From: Cystobasidium ongulense
Lineage: Eukaryota > Basidiomycota > Cystobasidiomycetes > Cystobasidiales > Cystobasidiaceae
Assembly: GCA_022835595.1 (NCBI GenBank)
Contig: BQUP01000007.1
Coordinates: forward strand, 620,001 to 684,000
Direction of reading: 5' to 3'
DNA: 64,000 nucleotides
Part shown: positions 5,305 to 63,170 of the stretch, piece after piece
Numbering within the stretch: the first letter of the stretch is position 1
Layout of the letters: each line of letters begins with the position of its first letter
Notes under the pieces: model-generated
What the model saw: only the letters and a program-made list of their open reading frames with translations
Told to the model about the DNA's origin: nothing
Database searches by the model: none
Program-made: the position numbers and the translations under genes

Positions 5305-7986
5305 CTACGATGAATTTGACACTTCGGCCTCTATCGCGTTTTTGAGATTGCCAGCTAATTCGGCATTGCGCAGCCTTAGACGCAAGAGGATGGGCTCACC
5401 GTTCTCGAACGCCATGAACGTCAAGAAAGACTTTTCGAGTTTAATGTTCAGGTCTTTGAATAATGAAAAGTTCTGGTGATGTACGACAAGCGTATAGTCA
5501 GCATCCTGCTTCAAGGGATATGGGACAGGCGAGGAAGACTCACAATTTGTACTCGCCCGTTGGCATCGCTTCGGCCAAGCATGCGAACTTTCCCAGTTTC
5601 CTTATTTCGATTGAGCTTCACAATACTGATGCCATGTTCCACGAATTCTGCCTTCTCTACTTCAGAGTCACCCTCTTTGACCTTTCTAGCCTCATTCTTC
5701 CATAACTTTGCTCTAGCTTCGCATATCGTTTCCTCGTTCTCTTCGCCAGCTCCGCCTTTCAGCAACGTGTTCTCCGAAGCCGCTTGTCCTTCGTCCGTGG
5801 CATTATCGGCATCTGGCGCTGGTGTACTATTCGCTGAAGCTCCTGGGGTGGTAGCGAGTGACGAGCCGCCGAAAGGTGAGCCGGCGCTGACCGTGCTTAG
5901 CTGGGAGCTAAATCCACCAAACCCGCCGCTGCTTCCAGCCAGTGATGTCGTGGAGCCAAAAGCTGAGGTCGCTGGAGCTGCAGTATTAATACTCGAAGTT
6001 CCTCCAAACGAGAAAGCTGAGGTTGAAGGTGCCGAGGTTGAGGTAGCCGTAGGCTGGGGACTGCCGAAAGAGAAGCCAGCGCTCGCGGAGAAGCCCTTAG
6101 GCGAGCCGCTTGATGCGCCGAAGCCAAATGTAGGAGCAGCCTTGGGAGATGTAGCTGCAGTGGCACCTCCAAACGAGAAAGTTTTGGGTGGAGTCGAAGC
6201 TGTAGTGCTCGCTGGCGTGCTGCTTGCCGCAGGCGCGCCAAACGAGAAACCAGAAAAGGGCTTAGGGGCCAATGGAGTCTCATTCGAGCTAGCATCGACC
6301 TTAGCTTTAGCTTCCGCTGGGAAGGTTTCCACTTGGCGTAAAGGAGAGGGCTGTCGGGCTCTACTGTTCGCACCGGGGAAGAAAGGTGCGGCAGTGCTTG
6401 ATAGATTGTTAGAAGAAGATTTGCCGTTCGCAGCTGGTTCAGGAGAGAGCTTATCTGCATCTTGCGTAGTCGTCGATGATGCAGGCGGAAAGGCGAATGC
6501 TGATTTCTCCCCGCTCGATTCTGCTTTCGAGGGATTGAAGGTGAAGCCTCCGGAAGCGGCACTTCCGCTTGAAGAGCCAGACGGTTTAGAAGGATCAGGC
6601 TTGAAAGTATTGCCTGCGAAGCTAAACATGGCAGGCGGCGCAGGTGGTACAGGCCCTTTCGCAGCTTCCGGTTCTGATACCGTTGCGCTAGCGGCAGGCT
6701 TGGGCTCTTCAGCCTTTTTGTCCGAGCTGAGAGTTGCAGATGAAGGTGTCGGCGCAGCTGACGAGCCAAAGGAGAAGCCAGAGAAAGGTTTAGTCGCTGC
6801 AGGTTGTTCCTTTGCAGGCGCAGCGGTTTCGGCAGGTGTACTGGTGGGAGCGGCAGAAGATGGTGATCCGCCAAAAGCAAAGCTTGCAAATGGTTTCGCA
6901 GGCGCCGGGGCTGCAGATGCGGGTAGACTGGATGTAGGAGCCGCTGATGAACTACCACTTGGAGCAGCAAAACTGAACATCGGCTTTGATGCCTGGCCAT
7001 CGCTAACGGGCCCGTTTGCTGTGGTGCTTTGCTTGCTTGTGCTCTCGTGCCGCCGCAATGTCGATGTTGTCGCCTGTCGTTTCCCATCTATGGAAGCTCG
7101 TTCCTTTTTGTAGTTGTCCAGTATCTTCTTCAGTGCCTCTGACAGATCCGCGAATGGATCCTTTTCAAGCAGCCGCTGTATAGGAGGGACTACCGACAGA
7201 TTCAGGCCACGCAAGGAAGAGTAGTACTGAACATCCGCATCTTGATCTGATGATGCCTCAGACGGAGATGATTTTGAAAAAGCTGAATTGCTAGCTGATG
7301 GCGGCGCACCGAAGCTAAAGCCATTGGAAACTGGTTTCGCTGCTGTGGAGCTTCCACCAAAAGCGAAAGACGTTGCGGGTGCTGCGCCGAACGATGTTGC
7401 AGGTGCGGAGGAGCCGAAGGAGAAGCCAGAGGTCGGCTGGCAGCATGAGTCTATGTCAGATACGGAATGCATGATTCGCTGGCAGAAGCTCAAAGAAAGC
7501 CTCACTGCTGGACCAGGCGAAGCTGCTGGAGTTGTCGAAGCTGATCGTTTGCCAGGCAGAGCGCGAATGCTGAAGAGACGGAAGCAGCAAGCTCAGCAAT
7601 CAGATACTGCGGTAAGTCTTGTTTCACGACCATTGCCCTGTGCAAAGGCGGTCTTGCTCATCTGGCTTCACTCACGGTCTTCTCGCGAGCTCAGTAGGTG
7701 CAGCCTGCTTGAAGCCATCAGAGCTGCCTGTCATCTGTCGCAGAGATAGAGAGACAAGCAGAGCTGTCAGCCAACTTATAGTGAGCCTAAAGCTATCCAT
7801 GCCTGCTCACCTGGACCTCATCTTCATCTTCCTCGTCCTCCTCGGCGTTTCTGAAATTCGCAGCACGCACGCCTGATCAGCATCATCACACCGCTTGTCC
7901 AGCTCAACCATCGTAGAAGCATCCAAGTCGCGAAGCAAAACGTCTTCTCACCTGTCTGTGAGATACTTCTCGGCGCCTCGCTTCAT
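5305..7986 (-). CDS. NUP2: FG nucleoporin Nup2/Nup50 with Ran-binding domain
   Basis: Mobile nuclear-basket nucleoporin that binds importin-alpha and Ran and helps recycle import receptors. Exons in transcript order: 7952-7986, 7811-7850, 7676-7734, 7506-7569, 5544-7436, 5305-5472, about 752 residues. The N-terminus reads MKRGAEKYLTDRN followed by an acidic run and later RRPIRALPGKR, the classic Nup50/Nup2 importin-alpha-binding signature spread over four short exons. A Nup50-type segment (YYSSLRGLNLS ... DPFADL) lies about 130 residues in. The middle is rich in FSFG, SFGS and FAFGG repeats in a Ser/Ala/Pro context. The C-terminus is a Ran-binding domain (ARAKLWKNEARKVKEGD ... GISIVKLNRNKETGKVRML ... 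SFLTFMAFENGEPILLRLR). Converges with the RRM gene; only about 130 bp separate its start from the end of AFG2. Confidence 0.94.
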
Positions 7987-48533: not shown

Positions 48534-50021
48534 ATGCAGTGTAGACCCGCGAAAACCACACCTGAACACGATGCTGTAGCGGAAGACGGACACGACGCCC
48601 AAAGTGGATCCGCAACAGCGTCTCCGGAAAGCAGTGCCACGACCTCGTCTGACGGCGGCAGGGGGCCAGCGCGTCCGTTGTCCCAGGCTTATATGGAGGG
48701 TTTGTCTTCCTTGCGATCGCTAGAGGCGTCTCCAGACTGCGAAGACCGTGTCGAAAGCCGTGCCAGATCCGATCTAGGGCGTTTGAATCTAGCACTACAC
48801 CTGAAGATACAGGAAAAGGACATACCCCTGACAACGTCTCAGCTGGAGTTCGACGCCCCTAATCTCATCACGAGGGCACTGGAAGGCAACCCGACATTTC
48901 GTGACGATATTGAGATGAGGTTGACTACCTCCGGTATCCATTTACGGCTACTACAAGGTGATCGCAGGCGAGGGAATCGCTCGCCTGCGATCTTTGAGTC
49001 GTTATTGCGGCCATACTTGTCGGGCTCGGTTATTCTGCCACTCTCAAACAAAGCGCTAAGTGTGCTCTTACCCTGTTGTCAGCAAGACGAAGACCCGCTC
49101 GCAGTACTCTACGGAGAAGCAGAATTCTGGGGTTTCACGAAGTTGGAGGAGTGTATCCTTCAGGAAAAGAATAAGTCATTGTCCGGCGATCAGACCGAAC
49201 CACTTCAGGCGGGTCAGCCAGGCTTGCAACCTGGCTTGCGGGAGTCCGAGGAGATGGAAGAGAAATATGAAAACCCTCTTGCCTTATTCCAACTCCCCAA
49301 CGAGCAATTGACCGCATTTCAGCGAGACCGCCTTCGGCAGTATCGTGCTAGCAACGAAAAGGTCATAGCATGGCTCCTTGCACTACGGGGCTCAAACCTG
49401 GCGAAACCATCCAATTCGACATATTTAGCGACGTTCGGCTGGCAGCCCGGCACCATGTTCTACAACACAGGGCCAGCTGTCCATAGGTCGTCGATTGACT
49501 CCGAAGCTCTTGTACAGCCGGCTGGCGATGCAGATTATGTGCGCAAGGTTGACTTTGTTATCAAGTCCGGCCTACGGTATGGCAACCTGAGCATCAATCG
49601 ACAATCAGCATTCACACTGTCTACGGGAGACTTCCATTTGCTTGCAGCGCAGGTTACCGAAGGTGGCGCGTTCCATACCTGTATGCAGAACAAGTATGGT
49701 CGGCACGGCCTTCGCATTCTCTATCAAGAAGGGTGCAAACCTTCCTCCGCTCCTGCATTTTTGGCGGGAATTCTGCTTGTCGGCTATTATTGCAGAGGTT
49801 CTATTGAGATCACGAGTCACCCATCCGCGTTGATGAAGAGAGTTCTGCCAGAGAATAGATGGACCGCATCTCTGGCAAGTGCACTCCGCGACGATGAATT
49901 TATTGACAGCGAGACCGATATTCAAAGTGAGCAGTTCGATCCCGTCTGTGGTGAGATTAATAGAAAACAAAAAGCTGAATCCCTGCGGTCGTACCGGTAT
50001 AGTTGCATTTCGACTAGCTGA
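48534..50021 (+). CDS. BTB/KCTD-like domain protein 3 of 3, diverged, apparently intronless
   Basis: One uninterrupted frame of 495 residues from the first ATG at 48534. After an acidic/Ser-rich N-terminus the BTB-like region reads LALHLKIQEKDIPLTTSQLEFD, FESLLRPYLSGSVILPL, DPLAVLYGEAEFWGFTKLEECI, matching the order in genes 1 and 2. The C-terminal 230 residues differ from those genes (for example LATFGWQPGTMFYNTG, HGLRILYQEGCKPSSAP, AFLAGILLVGYYCRGSIEI) and look globular. It lacks the introns of its neighbours, so it is either an older relative or a retro-derived copy. Function unknown. Confidence 0.65.
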   Translation: MQCRPAKTTPEHDAVAEDGHDAQSGSATASPESSATTSSDGGRGPARPLSQAYMEGLSSLRSLEASPDCEDRVESRARSDLGRLNLALHLKIQEKDIPLTTSQLEFDAPNLITRALEGNPTFRDDIEMRLTTSGIHLRLLQGDRRRGNRSPAIFESLLRPYLSGSVILPLSNKALSVLLPCCQQDEDPLAVLYGEAEFWGFTKLEECILQEKNKSLSGDQTEPLQAGQPGLQPGLRESEEMEEKYENPLALFQLPNEQLTAFQRDRLRQYRASNEKVIAWLLALRGSNLAKPSNSTYLATFGWQPGTMFYNTGPAVHRSSIDSEALVQPAGDADYVRKVDFVIKSGLRYGNLSINRQSAFTLSTGDFHLLAAQVTEGGAFHTCMQNKYGRHGLRILYQEGCKPSSAPAFLAGILLVGYYCRGSIEITSHPSALMKRVLPENRWTASLASALRDDEFIDSETDIQSEQFDPVCGEINRKQKAESLRSYRYSCISTS

Positions 50022-51210: not shown

Positions 51211-53061
51211 CTATTGGAAAAAACTTCCATACACTTCGCCCTTTTCGCCCTCGACAAGCTCTAATTCAAGCTCGACATCGGCTCGCACAAAGGCAGAGTG
51301 GCCTTGTCTTAGCGTTATGCTCTCTCCATCGACGGTCGCTTTGACAGTGCCTTCGGTCACGACAAATGTGTGAGGTCCAGGCAGAGTGATCTTTTCCGCT
51401 TTGCTCGAGGGAGACAGTGAGACTCGAATGATATCAAACTCGGTAATCGGTACTCTGTACAACCTCGTATTGCCTTCTGTACCTTGCCATCCGTCTTCGT
51501 ACTTCAAGGTGAGCTTGCTGGCGGGTAGATGACGATACGAGAGCATGTCGACAAAGGTCTGCTTTCCGCCCTGTTCGGTCTCTCCAAGACCGTGGCATAC
51601 CCTGAACATCGAAGAAAGTTAAGCATGCAGTCATAGCAGTAGAACGAAGCAATGCAATGCAAGCTGACTTACATCTGGAGGAACACATCAAGGAAGAACG
51701 AGACGTTCAGCTACAAGGGTCAGCATTTAAGCTTGTCACTTACATTATCAGAGTTGGCCATGCACTCGATAACATCACCTAACAAGCAGCAACAGACGTC
51801 AGTCTCAGGAGGCTTGACTAGAAGCATCAGAGTAGGAGCCTCACCATCAACGTAAGCATGAATGTCATCAGCAAGAATCCAGCAACCCTCTCCAGGGGGA
51901 AGTTGCATCAAGTTCATCATGAAACTGGTGACGAGAATCCCGACATCTCCTTCACCATATGTTTTCATGTTCTTCTTCCAAACCTTGGCAAGTGCATCTG
52001 CATTTTCGTTTTCGCCAAAGACAGCTGCCGGACTTTGGCTGTTGATCTTTTCATCTAGCGTGAGAATAAGCTTCTTGGCTTTCTCTTCTGGCAATTTGAT
52101 GAGCACATCGAACACATCTCGAATAGCCTTGGTTGCAGTTTCATCTTCTTTCTCATCGGCTTGTGCTGCGGCTGTTTTGAGGTTGTCAATGTGGCTTTGT
52201 TCAAAGAGTGCTGCAAGGTCCTTATTCCTCTCAATGAAAGCTGCAATGTGCGAAGGTGGGCGGAAGCCAATGAAACCAGTAAAGTCGGTAAGAGCAACCG
52301 AGACTTCAGGTTTGCCGTTCTCGTCGACGACTATTAGATAGAGTCGAGCATCAAAATCTTGCGGTTTCGTGAAATGAAGACAAGCTACTTACAGTCTTCA
52401 TTCTTGCCCTCTTCCCTTTTCTCTCTCATTTTCAACTTGCTACCAAGGCTAGGATCAGGGTGACTGCAATGACATCCAATCTCCTTGTTAGCAAGTCGCC
52501 CTTCTACGAAGGATCATTCACAGGTACCTACGCCTGAAGGGGCAAAGCCTTGTCAAAGCTGAGGATCTTGAACAGAAAAGGGAGGTCGTTCTTGTACAGT
52601 TTCTGCATGTCCTCGTTGCTCAAGAGCTTTTTGCCAAGGTAGTACTCTGGGTCGGACGCCACAATGTCGCGCAATTTCTCGCCAGTCTTGATGTTTGAAG
52701 CTGGGCCATTCTGGTGTGTTGACCCAATCCAAATCTACGCATTAAAGCATGTAATCTCAGCTTGAGAGTCATAGCCCGCGGTCGTGGGCCAGATGAAGAG
52801 GTGATCGAGCCGTGCCTCTTTGCGACGGTGCCCTCAGAGTGAAGCAGCCCAACCCACCTCGCCGTAAGGCTGCTTGGGCTCAATCTTGGTTCCCAGAACC
52901 TCTTTTGCTATCCGGGCTGCCCGAGAGTCTTCACCTTCGCGGCCTGCAACAGTCGACGATCAGCGTCATTCAGGGCAATCACGACGGAATTGCGGCGCAC
53001 CATACGGGAACGGCTGAAGGTAAGGCTTAAGTTCGAAGATGCTTTGCTTTGCTGTAACCAT
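51211..53061 (-). CDS. PMI40: Mannose-6-phosphate isomerase
   Basis: Zn-dependent cytosolic enzyme interconverting fructose-6-P and mannose-6-P, feeding GDP-mannose for glycosylation and the cell wall. Exons in transcript order: 53001-53061, 52858-52943, 52532-52734, 52393-52463, 51845-52330, 51744-51778, 51673-51710, 51211-51601; phases agree, 456 residues. Type I PMI landmarks: YGEIWIGSTHQNGPA, PFLFKILSFDKALPLQAHPD (zinc ligands Gln and His), DENGKPEVSVALTDFTGFIGFRP (Glu ligand), then NLMQLPPGEGCWILADDIHAYVDGDVIECMANSDN (His ligand) and LVDM-like FVDMLSYRH. The C-terminal cupin ends HTFVVTEGTVKATVDGES. The GYQ.YDWG motif near the start is replaced by a shorter LQPFPYGREG, so the first exon is the least certain part. 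Confidence 0.95.
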
Positions 53062-57076: not shown

Positions 57077-60022
57077 ATGTCCAAAGTCGGAGAGCTATTC
57101 AGGCCTGCTGACGAGAACGTCAAGCGCAACAGTCAGATTGAGCGTTTCCGCCGGTTCATAAACGCGAGATACAGCACAAACCTTCAAGATCCTTGGCAGC
57201 TACACAGCTGGTCGGTGGATAACAGGGCCTTGTTTTGGGATGCCATCTGGGACTACTTCTGCTTCATTGGCGAGAAGGGTGCACAGCCTGTAAGAAAGCC
57301 TACATGTACGCCGGCTTCTGTTGCATAAGCTGAAATACAATTGTTGTTTCCAGCTCTTTGTGGAAGATGGACCAATGACCTCGACCAGGGCTAGGTTGCC
57401 AAATGCGAAGCTTAACTTTGCAGAGAACATCCTGCGCTCTCACGTGAATGCTCAACATCCATCCAAGGTGGCGATTCATTCAGTAATAGAAGGTGCAGTT
57501 CTCCGAAGCCTCACATGGGCCGAGCTGGATGAAGAAGTTCGAAGAGCTGCAAATACTCTACGCAAGTTAGGCGTTCAGCCTGGAGATCGCGTTGCTGCCT
57601 ATACAGCAAACAACGCCGAAGCTGTCGTTACTCTTCTCGCCACCACCGCAGTCGGAGCTATCTGGTCCGCTACCCCGTGCGAGTTCGGTATTGAGGCTAC
57701 ACTCAGCCGTCTGCATCAAGTAAGCAGTCTCTGCAATGACCAAGTATACAGAATGGACACCAACTTACGTATCTGATCTCGCAGATATCGCCGAAATTCA
57801 TACTAGTTTCCGACAGATACAAGTATAATGGCAAGATTATCGATGTTGCAAGTAACATCCAGACGATTGTGCAAGAATTGGTGCCCGTAGGCTTGCAGAC
57901 CGTGGTGGTGGTTGGACAGCTAGAAGCTAGTCGAACGCCTGCAACACTACCCAAGCTACAAGGAGTTCAAACCCTTGACTGGAACAGTTTCCTTGACTAT
58001 AGTAATGAGACTAAAGGACCGGCTAGCTTCCATCGGGGACCGGCAATGGCACCTATTTATATCCTCTTCTCTTCAGGTGAGTTTTGCTATCCATCATCTT
58101 CGACTCCGTTGCTCACTCAGTTCGTTTTCCTCACCTAGGTGTGAGTCCAGGCATCAAAGGTAATCAGCTATGACATGCTCGAGGCTGACACAATCAATGT
58201 AGACCACTGGCCAGCCAAAGTGTATTGTGCATCATGGTACGTAAGTTGAGCTACAGAAAGGGAGGGAAGGAGGCTCATTCGTTGATTTGCACAGCTGGTG
58301 GGCAGCTTCTCAGTCATGCCGTCGGCCAGGCACTGCATTCGGACCTTGGACCAAACGACGCGTTCCTCATGTTCACAACCTTCGGTAAGCTTTTCCCTTT
58401 CTTCTTAAGGTGAAATGGAGCTTATGTTTGGTAATACAGGTTGGATGATGTCTGTAGTAGGTTAAAGTAAATCAGCTATGAATAAGTGAGGCTTGTCTAA
58501 TGCTTCCCGCAGTTTTACGTCTCATCCCTGCAAACCGGAGCGACCGTCGTGGCCTATGATGGATCGCCATTAAAGCCTATGGGAGTACTGTGGGATCTAG
58601 TAGAGAAGCTCAAGTAAGGATTCTGGATCACCTGTCAGGTGGATTGGAAAGCGTAACTCACTGTCCTCGCCCTAGATTAACGATGCTAGGCATTTCGCCT
58701 CGATACCTACACACTCTTCTGCAAGCGAAGTACTATCCAAAAGATCATCATGATCTTTCCTCTTTGCGTATCGTATTAACGACCGGTGCGCCTTTATTGC
58801 TGGAGCATCATGATTTTATGAGAGATCATGTTGGCCAGAACGTGTTCTTGTTCAATGGAAGCGGAGGCACAGGTGAGCCTCGGGTATTTCTAACAAGCAG
58901 TACCTGCATATGCTAAAGTATAGATCGACTAGACGTCTGCAATCACCATGTCTGTAAGTCGTTGCATCTTTTGCATCGTAAAAAGTGCTTTCCGGCTCAA
59001 TAGTGTGACGACTTCCTAGGCGGATGTGTAGCTTTACCTCATCATTATGGCGAGCTTCAAATGCCGATGCTTGGATCCAAGATCGAATGTTGGGATGATG
59101 ACGGTCAGTTGAGGTGACAGAGCTAATGGCAGTGTGTTGTGCTGAGTACAAACCTTGAAAACAGGTAATCCCGTCGCAAACGGTGCCGAAGGTAACCTGG
59201 TCTTGAGTCGTGCAATTCCGAATCAGCCGCTGTATTTCTGGAATGACCCTGAAGACAAGAAGTATCGAGAGACGTACTATGAAGCTTTCCCAGGTAAAAC
59301 CGCGTGGAATCAGGGTGACTGGTAAGTCGAATGCAAGCTAAAAACCCTCAATCATGTGCGTCTTAATGAGGTACTTGCTTGCTTGAATAGGGTCGTTGTA
59401 GGGCCGCAAACGAATGGCTATCATATGCTTGGACGTAGCGACAGCGTACTTGTAAGTTGAGCGATGCAAGGCTCGAGCTCGCCGTTCATCTAGCTGACAC
59501 TCATGCAAGAATCCTTCTGGAGTACGATTTGGGTCAGGAGAGTGAGCACATTTGATTGCTTTTCATGGCTTGCAAAGTATTGACGTGGTACCTCCTTGCA
59601 GAATCTATAGCATCATCGACAAAATGCCAGAAATTGGCAATAGCATGGCCGTCGGCCAGAAGACCGGGACTGACGAGAGAGTGTAAGCGAAGCAAGTCGC
59701 AGAGAAGTCTCGATTCTTTCGCTGATAATGTTGTCTCTACAGTGTGCTCTTCATTGAGCTGGCGAACGGCGCACAGCTGGACGACAACTTGCGGAAGAAG
59801 ATTAACAAGGCCATAGCTGAAGGCCTTTCTCGTCGACATCTGCCTGCGGTCCTGATGGCTTGTCCGAAGATACCCATGACAAGCAACGGCAAGCGACAGG
59901 AGATTGCTGTCAAGAAGATCCTGAATGGTGCTAGAATAGATCAGGTGAATGCAGATCCCGAGACGCTGAAATGGTTTTTAGAACAGCCAGAGCTGCGCAT
60001 CGCAATTCGCGCCAAGTTGTAG
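57077..60022 (+). CDS. AACS: Acetoacetyl-CoA synthetase (16 exons, one probably 2 nt)
   Basis: Cytosolic ANL-family ligase: acetoacetate + ATP + CoA to acetoacetyl-CoA, feeding sterol and lipid synthesis. Exons: 57077-57289, 57354-57719, 57785-58076, 58139-58140, 58203-58236, 58295-58384, 58440-58456, 58513-58613, 58676-58872, 58933-58953, 59020-59103, 59165-59321, 59391-59451, 59510-59541, 59602-59682, 59743-60022; all phases agree, 675 residues, close to the human protein (about 670). Landmarks: FRRFINARYSTNLQDPW near the start, PNAKLNFAENILR, AAYTANNAEAV, the adenylate loop SSGTTGQPKCIVHHAGGQL, GGTD, YHMLGRSDSVL and the catalytic Lys region MTSNGKRQEIAVKKI near the end. Broken copies of parts of this gene lie at 61300-61675 and 62985-63170. 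Confidence 0.96.
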
Positions 60023-60458
60023 TAGTGTAGCTGGGTAGCAATGTGAAGGCATTGAGGTAAACAGTATTGAAGAAGTAGATATGAGCGTGTTAATTGGCAT
60101 GTCCACTACGTGCAAGCATGAATCGGAATTCGCAGTATTCGGGATGATCGAGCAGCTTTGCAGCGTGCATTTGCCATGTATGCTGATTAATTGCGTTCTG
60201 CTGAGTGTCCGAATGCTTGAAATGACATTAACATGACTGAAGGAGCTCTGCTTCATCAGTTGCCCTCAAGGTGTACTTGCTGGCTCAGCTCTTATCGCCG
60301 ATGATCCAGCTTGGTTATCAGCTTGGTCATCAGGCTGGTTGGCTGTCCCGTTATAACGTTCTCGAGGTGGCTCCGAGGCCTCTGTTGTCTCTCTGCTCGC
60401 ATCTGAAAAGTCACCAGCAATCTCTCCAGCATCCATCCACCATTCGAAGAAGCACAGC
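60023..60458. other. Intergenic between AACS and GFA copy 1
   Basis: 436 bp without a gene. The part before the GFA start (about 60290-60458) resembles 61970-62130, so the promoter was duplicated with the gene. Confidence 0.55.
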
Positions 60459-61096
60459 ATGTCCGAGATCATTCCACGCCACGAACATCCCGTTGAGCGA
60501 GCAGGCGGAGTGCTAGAGGAGTGCTTTCCTCTCTTCATAGCCAACGATGGTTATACGAAGCAAGAAGGTGACGGTGAGACGACGGCGACCTGCTTCTGTG
60601 GTGGTGTGCAGTATGCCTTCGTGAGCTTCTCCGCTTCAACCACGTGCATCACGCAGCTTTGGCGCGTAAAGCTGATTGCCTCTGGCTTCAGCCCATCCGC
60701 GGTGAAGGTATCTCGACTTGCTTCATATGCCACTGCACCGACTGTCGCAAAGTGAGCACCAGCATGTTTGCTACCAACTTTACCGTTATGGCAACACACC
60801 TTCGTCTGGTGCGCGGCAAAGACCTGCTTCAGAGTTACGGTCAATCTGCTACCATTGGATCTTCGCGTAACAAGCACACAATGACCAACACGTGGTGCAC
60901 TAACTGTGGAACCGTCATGCATCGTGTTTCAAGCGGATTTCCAGACGAAGTCTACATGCGACTAGGCCCGGTAGATGATTTCTCTTTACATGAGACCGCT
61001 TTCAAGCCAACAGTCGAACAATTCGTCAAAGACAGAGTCAGCTGGCTGAAGCCGGTCAAAGGTTTAGCTCAATTCGAGAGGATGGCGAATGAGTAG
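60459..61096 (+). CDS. GFA-domain (glutathione-dependent formaldehyde-activating-like) protein, copy 1
   Basis: Small zinc-binding beta-tent protein of the GFA/CENP-V family. Exons 60459-60620 and 60692-61096; 188 residues. Zinc-cysteine motifs are all present: ATCFCGGVQ near the N-terminus, FICHCTDCRK, and NTWCTNCGTVM. A G-T-G-A-G-C after CRK looks like a donor, but reading through gives KVSTSMFATNF, the family sequence, so no intron is placed there. Members include glutathione S-(hydroxymethyl) transferase-like enzymes and many of unknown role. Its twin lies at 62131-62765. Confidence 0.92.
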
Positions 61097-61299
61097 CTTC
61101 AAGCAAATGAGTAGCTTTATTATATGCTGCATACCTCGATACGAGAACGAATGATGGACTGTATAGGAAGCCTACAGCAACGAGAGCTGCCATTGAGAGA
61201 CCCGCTTGATTGTCTTCCATGATAGTTGTACGTCTACATATCTTGTTGGCAATAATAATCCGAACTCGCGCAACGATCGGGTGTACACACCGTCTACAT

Positions 61300-61675
61300 G
61301 TTGATGGAGCCTTGGGATCTTCTGGAGGATCGTGTTAGCCAAAACGTGTTCTTGTGCAGGCCGCAGAAACATCCTTGGAGCCTTTCGCTGGAGGTGCTGT
61401 GACGAGTGCAGTATACTGTTCATTTGCGCTCGCCAATAGCGCAAAGCTAGACAACAACCTGCGAAAGAAGATCAACAAGGCCATCGCTGATGGCCTTCCG
61501 CGTCGACACTTGCCTATGGTCTTAACGGCTTGTACGAAGATACCAATGACGAGCAATGGCAGACGACACGAGATTGCTGTCAAGTACATATTGAACGGTG
61601 CCAGAATAGATCAGGTGAACGCGGATCACAGCCAAGATTGCGCATTGCTGTACGCGCCAAATTGGTGATAGAGTA
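61300..61675 (+). pseudogene. Acetoacetyl-CoA synthetase fragment (3' end)
   Basis: A truncated copy of the AACS gene. It begins with a piece of the exon around GQNVFLFN (61323-61357: an altered SQNVFLCR-like segment), jumps directly to the last exon, and carries ALANSAKLDNNLRKKINKAI and IPMTSNGRRHEIAVKYILNG before diverging at the stop (residues LLYAPNW). The parent's Lys of NGKRQE is Arg here. No full reading frame exists for the enzyme, so it is not functional as a synthetase. Confidence 0.85.
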
Positions 61676-62130
61676 GCACAGCAGCGGGGTAGCAGTGAGG
61701 AGGCGTAGTAGTGAGGAGGCGTAGTACAAGCATCACCTTGAAGAATTAGATATGGGCGTGTTGGCATGACCATCTTGCGAGTAGCCAGATTTAGACTTGG
61801 TCTTCGAGTTGATCGAGCGGCTTTGAGGCATCTAAGTGCCATGTTGGCTGAATAAGGGCATTATTCTGTTGAGTCTATCAAAGCTTACACTGACAATATG
61901 CTTAGTAAACCATTGCTGCTGCTTCATCAGCTCCCCTGATATCTCACCCGCTTGCTCAGCTCTTACCGCCGAATGATCCAGCTTGGTTATCAGCTAGGTC
62001 ATCGAGGTGCAGGGCTTTCTCGTTAAAACGTTCCCGAACTGGCTTCGAAGGCTCTCTTGTCTTGCTACTAGCATCTAACTAGTCACCAGCAATCTCTCTA
62101 GCTTTCATTCACCATTCGAAGAAGCACAGC

Positions 62131-62765
62131 ATGTCCGAAATCATTCCACGCCACGATAAGCCCGTCGAGCGAGCAGGCGGAGTGCTAGAGGAGTGCTTTC
62201 CTCTCTTCATAGCCAACGATGGTTATACCAAGCAAGAAGGTGACGGTGAGACGACGGCGACCTGCTTCTGTGGTGGTGTGCAGTATGCCTTCGTGAGCTT
62301 CTCCGCTTCAACCACGTGCACCCCGCAACTTTGGCGCGTAAAGCTGATTGCCTCTTGCTTCAGCCCATCCGCGGTGAAGGTATCTCGACTTGCTTCATAT
62401 GCCACTGCACCGACTGTCGCAAAGTGAGCACCAGCATGTTTGCTACCAACTTTACCGTTATGGCAACACACCTTCGTCTAGTACGAGGCGAAGAGCTACT
62501 ACGAAGCTGGGGGCAATCTGAAACCATAGGATCCCCGCGTAACGAGCACACAATGACCAATACATGGTGCAACACTTGTGGAACTCTCATGCACCGCGTA
62601 TCAAGCGATACTCCAAACCAAATCTACATGCGACTAGGCCCGGTAGATGATTTCTCCTTACACGAGACCGCTTTCAAGCCTACAGTCCAACTCTTCGTCA
62701 AAGATAGAGCTAGCTGGCTGCAGCCTGTCGAAGGTTTGGCTCAAATCGAGAGGATGACTTCATGA
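62131..62765 (+). CDS. GFA-domain protein, copy 2
   Basis: Tandem duplicate of the gene at 60459. Exons 62131-62292 and 62364-62765; 187 residues. The zinc-binding Cys motifs (TCFCGGVQ, FICHCTDCRK, NTWCNTCGTLM) are intact. Exon 1, the intron and the first part of exon 2 are nearly identical to copy 1; the second half of exon 2 (from about 62475) is clearly more diverged, mostly at third positions and a few residues. Both copies look functional. Confidence 0.9.
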
Positions 62766-62984
62766 GCAGCTTCGAAGTATTTCACATAGCGCTATACGAG
62801 AACGAACGGTGGGCTTCGAACGATAGGAAGCATCTGACAGCAAGAGCTACCGGTGAGATAGTGAGATTCGCGCTTGGTTGTTTTCAGACTGTGATCTATT
62901 GTTAGCTGTTAGCCTACATATCTCGTTGGCAATATTAATCTGAACTTACGCAACAATCATTGCAATTCGTCTATTGTGTCGGTT

Positions 62985-63170
62985 GAGAACGTAACTTACT
63001 GTCCTTGGCCCTAGACTAACCATGCTGGGCAGCTTTGCACGACATATGGATACACGTCCGCAAGCGAAATATGATCCAAAGATCATCATGATGATCTTTT
63101 CTCGTTAGGTATCGTGTTAAATCGTCACACCTCTCTTGCTGCAGCATCACGATTTTATGAAGGACTCGCA
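62985..63170 (+). pseudogene. Acetoacetyl-CoA synthetase fragment (middle exon)
   Basis: A second broken piece of the AACS gene, matching 58645-58820 (intron end, then the exon encoding the SPRYLHTLLQAKYYPKDHHDLSSL segment). Matches include ctgtcctYgccctagaYtaac, the run aaagatcatcatgat, and catcaYgattttatga. Several indels and substitutions disrupt the frame. Confidence 0.85.

Follow-up and report, generated by a model that had tools for sequence, protein, structure and literature searches.

A predicted two-nucleotide exon between two 62-nt introns in an acetoacetyl-CoA synthetase gene of the basidiomycete Cystobasidium ongulense

How is the SSGTTG loop of an acetoacetyl-CoA synthetase encoded when the matching reading frames on its two sides are separated by 126 nt, of which two nucleotides appear to be retained in the mRNA? 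The question arises in a 64,000-nt stretch of Cystobasidium ongulense DNA (the window; GCA_022835595.1, contig BQUP01000007.1, positions 620,001 to 684,000; coordinates below are those of the window), part of a genome of 19.77 Mb in 19 contigs. A sequence-only reading of this DNA had proposed that a GT dinucleotide with an intron on either side is spliced in as an exon.

The synthetase gene and its predicted product

The acetoacetate-CoA ligase (acetoacetyl-CoA synthetase) gene (57077-60022, + strand) has 16 exons and 15 introns. It starts with ATG at 57077, its stop codon ends at 60022 and all 675 codons between are open, as the sequence-only reading had it when describing a 675-residue product in phase. 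All introns are GT-AG and 55-69 nt long; exons 1 to 16 measure 213, 366, 292, 2, 34, 90, 17, 101, 197, 21, 84, 157, 61, 32, 81 and 280 nt. Two curated models for acetoacetate-CoA ligase recognise the product above their cut-offs (NF002937, 677.1 bits, cut-off 639; TIGR01217, 613.4 bits, cut-off 520.9), and it aligns over residues 18-651 with a solved enzyme (PDB 4wd1; E 1.2e-121), ungapped across the loop and through LFSSGTTGQPKCIV. Because both curated models are passed and the alignment with 4wd1 has no gap at the loop, the locus looks like an intact member of a well-defined family, encoding a predicted enzyme. The SSGTTG loop at the junction is a nucleotide-binding motif of the superfamily. 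Placed within this loop, the 2-nt exon would have to be spliced correctly for the metabolic enzyme to be made, and annotation unable to place such an exon would break the gene there.

Layout and signals of the two-nucleotide exon

Exon 3 (57785-58076) ends in ATCCTCTTCTCTTCAG, encoding ILFSS and the first base of Gly (final letters TCTTCAG). Intron 3 (58077-58138; 62 nt, GTGAGT donor, CCTAG acceptor) is followed by exon 4 (58139-58140), the dinucleotide GT, which completes the Gly codon of SSGTTG, then by intron 4 (58141-58202; 62 nt, GTGAGT donor, TGTAG acceptor) and by exon 5 (58203-58236; 34 nt), which starts with ACCACTGG and encodes TTGQPKCIVHH plus the first base of the next codon; all lie on the + strand. 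The two 62-nt introns with GTGAGT donors and TAG acceptors, as described earlier, are exact in coordinates and length. Complete donor and acceptor signals are thus present on both introns flanking an exon in the ultra-micro range (1-5 nt), and each intron also has a branch-like site: CTCAC in intron 3, with the A located 23 nt before the end of the intron, and CTGAC in intron 4, 14 nt from the end.

Splice matrices built from 13 synthetase introns, with introns 3 and 4 omitted, and 36 introns elsewhere gave 19.1 bits for intron 3 (first of 15) and 14.8 bits for intron 4 (fourth of 15), while a single 126-nt intron at the same place scored 8.9. A self-trained gene finder overpredicted and its stricter version gave a weak coding signal; the splice matrices alone were used afterwards. 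Shuffling the interior of the 126-nt interval produced an AG|GT|GT arrangement with both introns of at least 45 nt in 93 cases out of 20000; none of the 20000 shuffles brought both introns to 14.8 bits, the weaker of the real scores. At a cut of 12 bits for each intron and an exon length of 2 mod 3, up to 5 nt, such arrangements were found in 8/20000 mononucleotide and 9/20000 first-order Markov shuffles.

Two possible origins of the introns were tried and rejected. Duplication of one 62-nt intron into the other finds 25 of 62 positions matching, and 325 of 1000 shuffles align as well. As for a mobile or introner-like intron, an own-genome search with 58057-58240 returned one match, the query itself (this search skips very common words). 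No relative was found in the viral contigs searched.

Alternative splice models

Enumeration of excisions over exons 3-5 (one or two steps; GT-AG, GC-AG or AT-AC ends; introns of at least 30 nt) yielded the SSGTTG product by exactly two two-step pathways, which remove the same two 62-nt introns in either order. Of the types of single excision tried, one alone leads to this product, a GA-AG intron of 124 nt (58079-58202); the earlier remark that one such intron formally yields an identical mRNA is thereby confirmed. U1 can pair at this shifted site (-9.2 kcal/mol), though in the GT register. However, the splice score is -6.4, compared with the 19.1 and 14.8 of introns 3 and 4, introns of the GA-AG type are very rare, and an acceptor, a strong donor and well-spaced branch-like sites would all have to lie inside the interval by accident (0/20000 shuffles), making a non-canonical intron very unlikely here.

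A broader test combined 254 candidate introns into 4837 models of up to two introns; 505 of the models were open over their full length, giving 453 proteins. SSGTTG is present in a single one of these proteins, and the view that the GT exon restores the loop holds up: among the 4837 models only the formal GA-AG intron otherwise does so. Against a profile built from seven bacterial homologues (L009-L015), all with SSGTTG, this product ranks first (596.5 bits); the runner-up (589.6 bits) requires an AT-AC intron and has SSGEYG as its loop, and the best other models with two GT-AG introns (584.7 bits) carry extra residues in the loop. Skipping exon 4, with 58077-58202 excised as a unit, causes a frameshift that ends the protein after 352 residues. 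Only two single GT-AG introns at the site are in frame and open (scores -2.5 and -5.8). If the 2-nt exon is kept but the next AG (58214) is used, TTGQ is lost; the overlapping donor GTGTGA, read without an exon and in the wrong frame, gives an intron pair with good scores as well (19.1 and 10.3 bits), a point against the 2-nt exon. The two nucleotides are needed both for the frame and for the conserved protein sequence.

One of the models at 584.7 bits has a longer exon: introns at 58077-58120 and 58141-58202 enclose 20 nt, so that VRFPHL is inserted in the loop (SSVRFPHLGTTG), which might occur at least as a minor isoform. This model is in frame, open and GT-AG throughout, but its first intron has only 44 nt (others 55-69) and a splice score of 2.2, the CTCAC branch-like site and its AG are only about 5 nt apart, and the insertion breaks a loop kept by 7/7 bacterial homologues and by 4/4 paralogues; we regard it as highly improbable.

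A mistake in the assembly, or a 2-nt deletion of recent date, would leave the gene misread or frame-broken, the true or ancestral exon end being TCTTCAGGT, followed by a single 126-nt intron. The site is indeed a short GT repeat, CAGGT(GT)GAGT, in which loss of one GT would leave a 126-nt intron, and length alone does not exclude such an intron, given a single intron of 123 nt in the nearby isomerase gene. Against this, the frame stays open elsewhere in the 675-codon gene, across 14 further exons and 13 further introns, a ready-made GT exon splitting the interval into two 62-nt introns would not be expected by chance, and a like arrangement is found in a second gene of the window. An error or deletion is accordingly considered unlikely.

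Paralogues in the same genome

A protein search of the genome identified at least four further synthetase-like genes or remnants, on contigs C5 (853001-855600), C6 (311901-314500), C9 (30201-33000) and C12 (109501-112200), in addition to fragments adjoining the gene; only the best candidates were scored, and the count is a lower bound. SSGTTG is kept in all four. The C6 and C12 copies (L055 and L056) have no intron at the loop: the GT site reads GGTACTACTGGC in the former (wider stretch TCAAGTGGTACTACTGGC) and GGTACCACTGGC in the latter (wider stretch TCTTCTGGTACCACTGGC), i.e. the bases split in the window copy are uninterrupted in intronless relatives, which also provide a length standard for the spliced product. 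In the C5 and C9 copies one GT-AG intron, at a shared position, lies in the second Thr codon, 4 nt beyond the GT|ACC site (joins placed by eye). Neither of the twin introns is found at exactly this position in the paralogues, and since the 2-nt exon is absent from all four, the predicted twin-intron arrangement is peculiar to the window gene among these copies.

Splice signals, reading frame, restoration of SSGTTG and paralogues that keep the motif together support the 2-nt exon. The preferred reading, to which we assign a probability of about 0.86, is that two independent and complete U2-type GT-AG introns of 62 nt, with insertion sites 2 nt apart, leave a GT exon of two nucleotides.

In the C12 copy, stop codons occur in some of the matched segments, where introns or decay are possible. 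Within the window itself, 59740-61278 and 61409-62958 form a tandem duplication (77% identity) and 58652-58821 and 62990-63160 a further duplicated pair (75%). In the second duplicate copy, parts of the 3′-end of the synthetase gene recur, as does the reading frame downstream of it, MSEIIPRH...; this frame, compared as the 98-residue pieces of both copies, had no Pfam match.

Possible course of splicing

As both introns are complete and short, intron definition, the usual mode for short introns in fungi, would be expected, and introns 3 and 4 would then be removed one after another, in either order. Sequential removal is likely because U1 on donor 4 (-3 to +6, 58138-58146) overlaps the last base of intron 3. 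If intron 4 went first, intron 3, whose donor pairs with U1 at -11.9 kcal/mol, would be left unambiguous, with a single outcome. If intron 3 went first, the junction would read CAGGTGTGAGT, with two overlapping donors of which GTGAGT must be preferred; their U1 energies are -6.7 kcal/mol for the wrong frame and -6.0 for the right frame, while the matrix prefers the right-frame donor (intron score 14.8 vs 10.3). The stronger donor 3 would thus argue for intron 3 being removed first and accuracy for intron 4, and the sequence does not decide between these orders. Around a 9-nt exon of potato invertase the second intron is reported to go first (PMC4674806). The sequence-only reading had held that splicing would have to be ordered: a fixed order is not forced by the signals, either order being workable, whereas removal in succession remains likely, given the U1 overlap and the donor ambiguity.

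The same reading had likened the process to stwintron or nested splicing, in which one intron interrupts a splice element of another. A stwintron is defined by an external splice element that is split (PMC5639578), and fungal [D1,2] and [D2,3] stwintrons resemble the present case as two adjacent U2 introns excised in succession, a likeness extended here by the donor-like CAGGTGTGAGT regenerated once intron 3 is gone. In stwintrons, however, the internal intron splits an element of the external one (PMC5639578), whereas here both introns are complete, no donor, branch site or acceptor is interrupted and a 2-nt exon remains between them. No nested path to the product was found among the enumerated excisions (introns of at least 30 nt, tested ends), nor does either intron become removable only after the other, since as a test on sequence either order formally works. 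The stwintron comparison was therefore dropped, and a true stwintron is judged extremely improbable.

A second candidate in a phosphomannose isomerase-like gene

A gene resembling type I phosphomannose isomerase (51211-53061, - strand; low end from exon lengths) encodes 444 aa and has seven introns, one of 123 nt. Two of the introns appear to flank another 2-nt exon, AT (51673-51674), supplying the first two bases of Met in SDN-M-VCHGL; the intron before it (51675-51743) has 69 nt (GTAAGT...CTCCAG) and the one after it (51602-51672) 71 nt (GTAAGT...GTTCAG). The product matches PF20511 (93.4 bits, cut-off 22) and PDB 5nw7/1pmi (E about 1e-49), with the helical domain (18.4 vs 23.4) and the cupin domain (24 vs 27.2) under their Pfam cut-offs. 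Across the junction the spliced product, DVIECMANSDN-M-VCHGL, aligns without gaps to DIIECMAASDNVVRAGF, and in a more canonical isomerase paralogue on contig C8 (L041) DNVVRAGL / ACAACGTCGTTCGAGCTGG is uninterrupted, an intron lying two codons upstream.

By similarity to the own-genome paralogue and 1pmi, the 2-nt-exon model ranks first of 60 open models restricted to GT-AG introns, and its flanking introns score 17.0 and 12.4 with matrices that contain no isomerase introns. With GC-AG introns allowed, two models stand above it and others are equal; with GC-AG and AT-AC both allowed, it is absent from the 12 models listed, under a scoring that penalised unaligned ends. The protein is also divergent in the segment that follows the exon, which counts against it. 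The AT dinucleotide appears to be a second 2-nt exon in the window. The 123-nt intron of this gene (52735-52857, - strand) is twice the usual length; within it there is no AG with a GT 0-15 nt further on that would leave two introns of at least 45 nt.

Relation to known ultra-short exons

Exons of 2-5 bp have been cited for Arabidopsis, Drosophila and human (PMC12940212), and 1-nt exons are published for Arabidopsis APC11 (PMC4674806), for plant APC11 and VPS55 (PMC8831610) and for Fusarium CYP621A P450 genes, the last in 20 orthologues and confirmed by RNA reads of two species (PMC12940212). The description of the GT exon as among the smallest known is accordingly fair, although it is no record. 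The Fusarium case is similar: an ultra-short exon of a fungus, flanked by two short introns, falls in a conserved motif (there PKG) and was deduced from the frame and an intronless relative, the part played here by the C6 and C12 copies (PMC12940212). It differs in exon length (1 nt vs 2 nt), and the present cases come from one genome and two genes and are predicted from sequence. The plant APC11 and VPS55 exons are likewise too short for exon definition; these were demonstrated by constructs, RT-PCR and RNA-seq, the present ones being predictions from genomic DNA. For Arabidopsis APC11 the authors propose intron definition with one-after-another removal (PMC4674806). Microexons in P450 genes of Phanerochaete chrysosporium also lie between short introns and in a basidiomycete, but the shortest given in that report has 6 bp (PMC1184071). 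Titles and abstract openings of the matches listed in open-licence PMC articles, for very small exons and for synthetase introns or exons, contain no report of a fungal 2-nt exon.

Ultra-small exons are already known in plants and Fusarium; the less expected part is the apparent occurrence of two in one 64-kb window.

Tandem introns elsewhere in the genome

Tandem introns 0-15 nt apart were sought on both strands of 264 kb, made up of the window and 200 kb of further sequence (L017-L036), with the total over five Markov-shuffled copies of the whole sample as a control. For pairs with any exon of 0-15 nt, observed counts against this five-copy total were 2 vs 1 at ≥14.7 bits, 4 vs 3 at ≥13, 14 vs 7 at ≥12, 19 vs 25 at ≥11 and 38 vs 62 at ≥10, the excess being small at ≥9 (64 vs 182 in five copies). 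Part of the excess is to be expected, because real introns supply half a pair. For an exon length of 2 the corresponding counts were 1 vs 0 at ≥14.7, 1 vs 0 at ≥13, 3 vs 0 at ≥12, 3 vs 2 at ≥11, 3 vs 2 at ≥10 and 5 vs 5 at ≥9 bits.

The 14 pairs at ≥12 bits include the synthetase locus, read in two ways, and one place in L032, likewise read twice. Inspection by eye covered 13 of them, the remaining one being the second synthetase reading. The L035 and L033 pairs are false, as coding sequence makes up part of the presumed second intron. The L024 pair, with an exon length of 2, lacks a long upstream frame, the L031 and L032 pairs show short frames, and for a 4-nt exon in the window (49549-49674, - strand) a single-intron reading is equally good. 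Ranked by summed score among 119 tandem pairs in the 264 kb (exon 0-8 nt, each intron at least 8 bits), the synthetase pair is at the top (33.9), and the next distinct places are in L036 (33.2, 4 nt) and the isomerase-like gene (window, - strand, 51743-51602; 29.5, 2 nt, AT), with L024, which lacks supporting frames, fourth (29.0).

In L036 a putative 4-nt exon, ACAA (6802-6805, + strand, within 6728-6875), lies between introns of 74 and 70 nt that score 19.4 and 13.8, compared with 8.9 for the best single in-frame intron. No Pfam or PDB relative of note was found for its product, and the exon is only a candidate, based on frame and splice score. It joins two long open frames, and the resulting protein has two CX3C motifs, noted by eye.

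Two homology-supported 2-nt exons in the 64-kb window and one 4-nt candidate in the 200-kb sample raise the possibility, put at slightly under even odds, that exons of 2-4 nt recur in this fungal genome where two short introns lie almost adjacent in conserved genes, and that its spliceosome handles them routinely by sequential intron definition. If the rate held, tens to a hundred or more such exons would be present in the 19.8-Mb genome, most of them hard for standard annotation; this extrapolation is rough, as the window was chosen for holding one case and L036 is without homology support. Recurrence would make the genome a good system for studying acceptors and donors too close for simultaneous binding, and also how often a second intron lands beside an existing one. 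The synthetase case also suggests a search for such exons in conserved fungal genes that are seemingly frame-broken at an intron of double length.

A different kind of array was seen in L022 (6177-6535, + strand), where four intron-like units with short flanking frames lie in a row, spaced 12, 73 and 9 nt apart; the last two are visibly similar, which would fit the duplication of an intron or a host gene that is non-coding.
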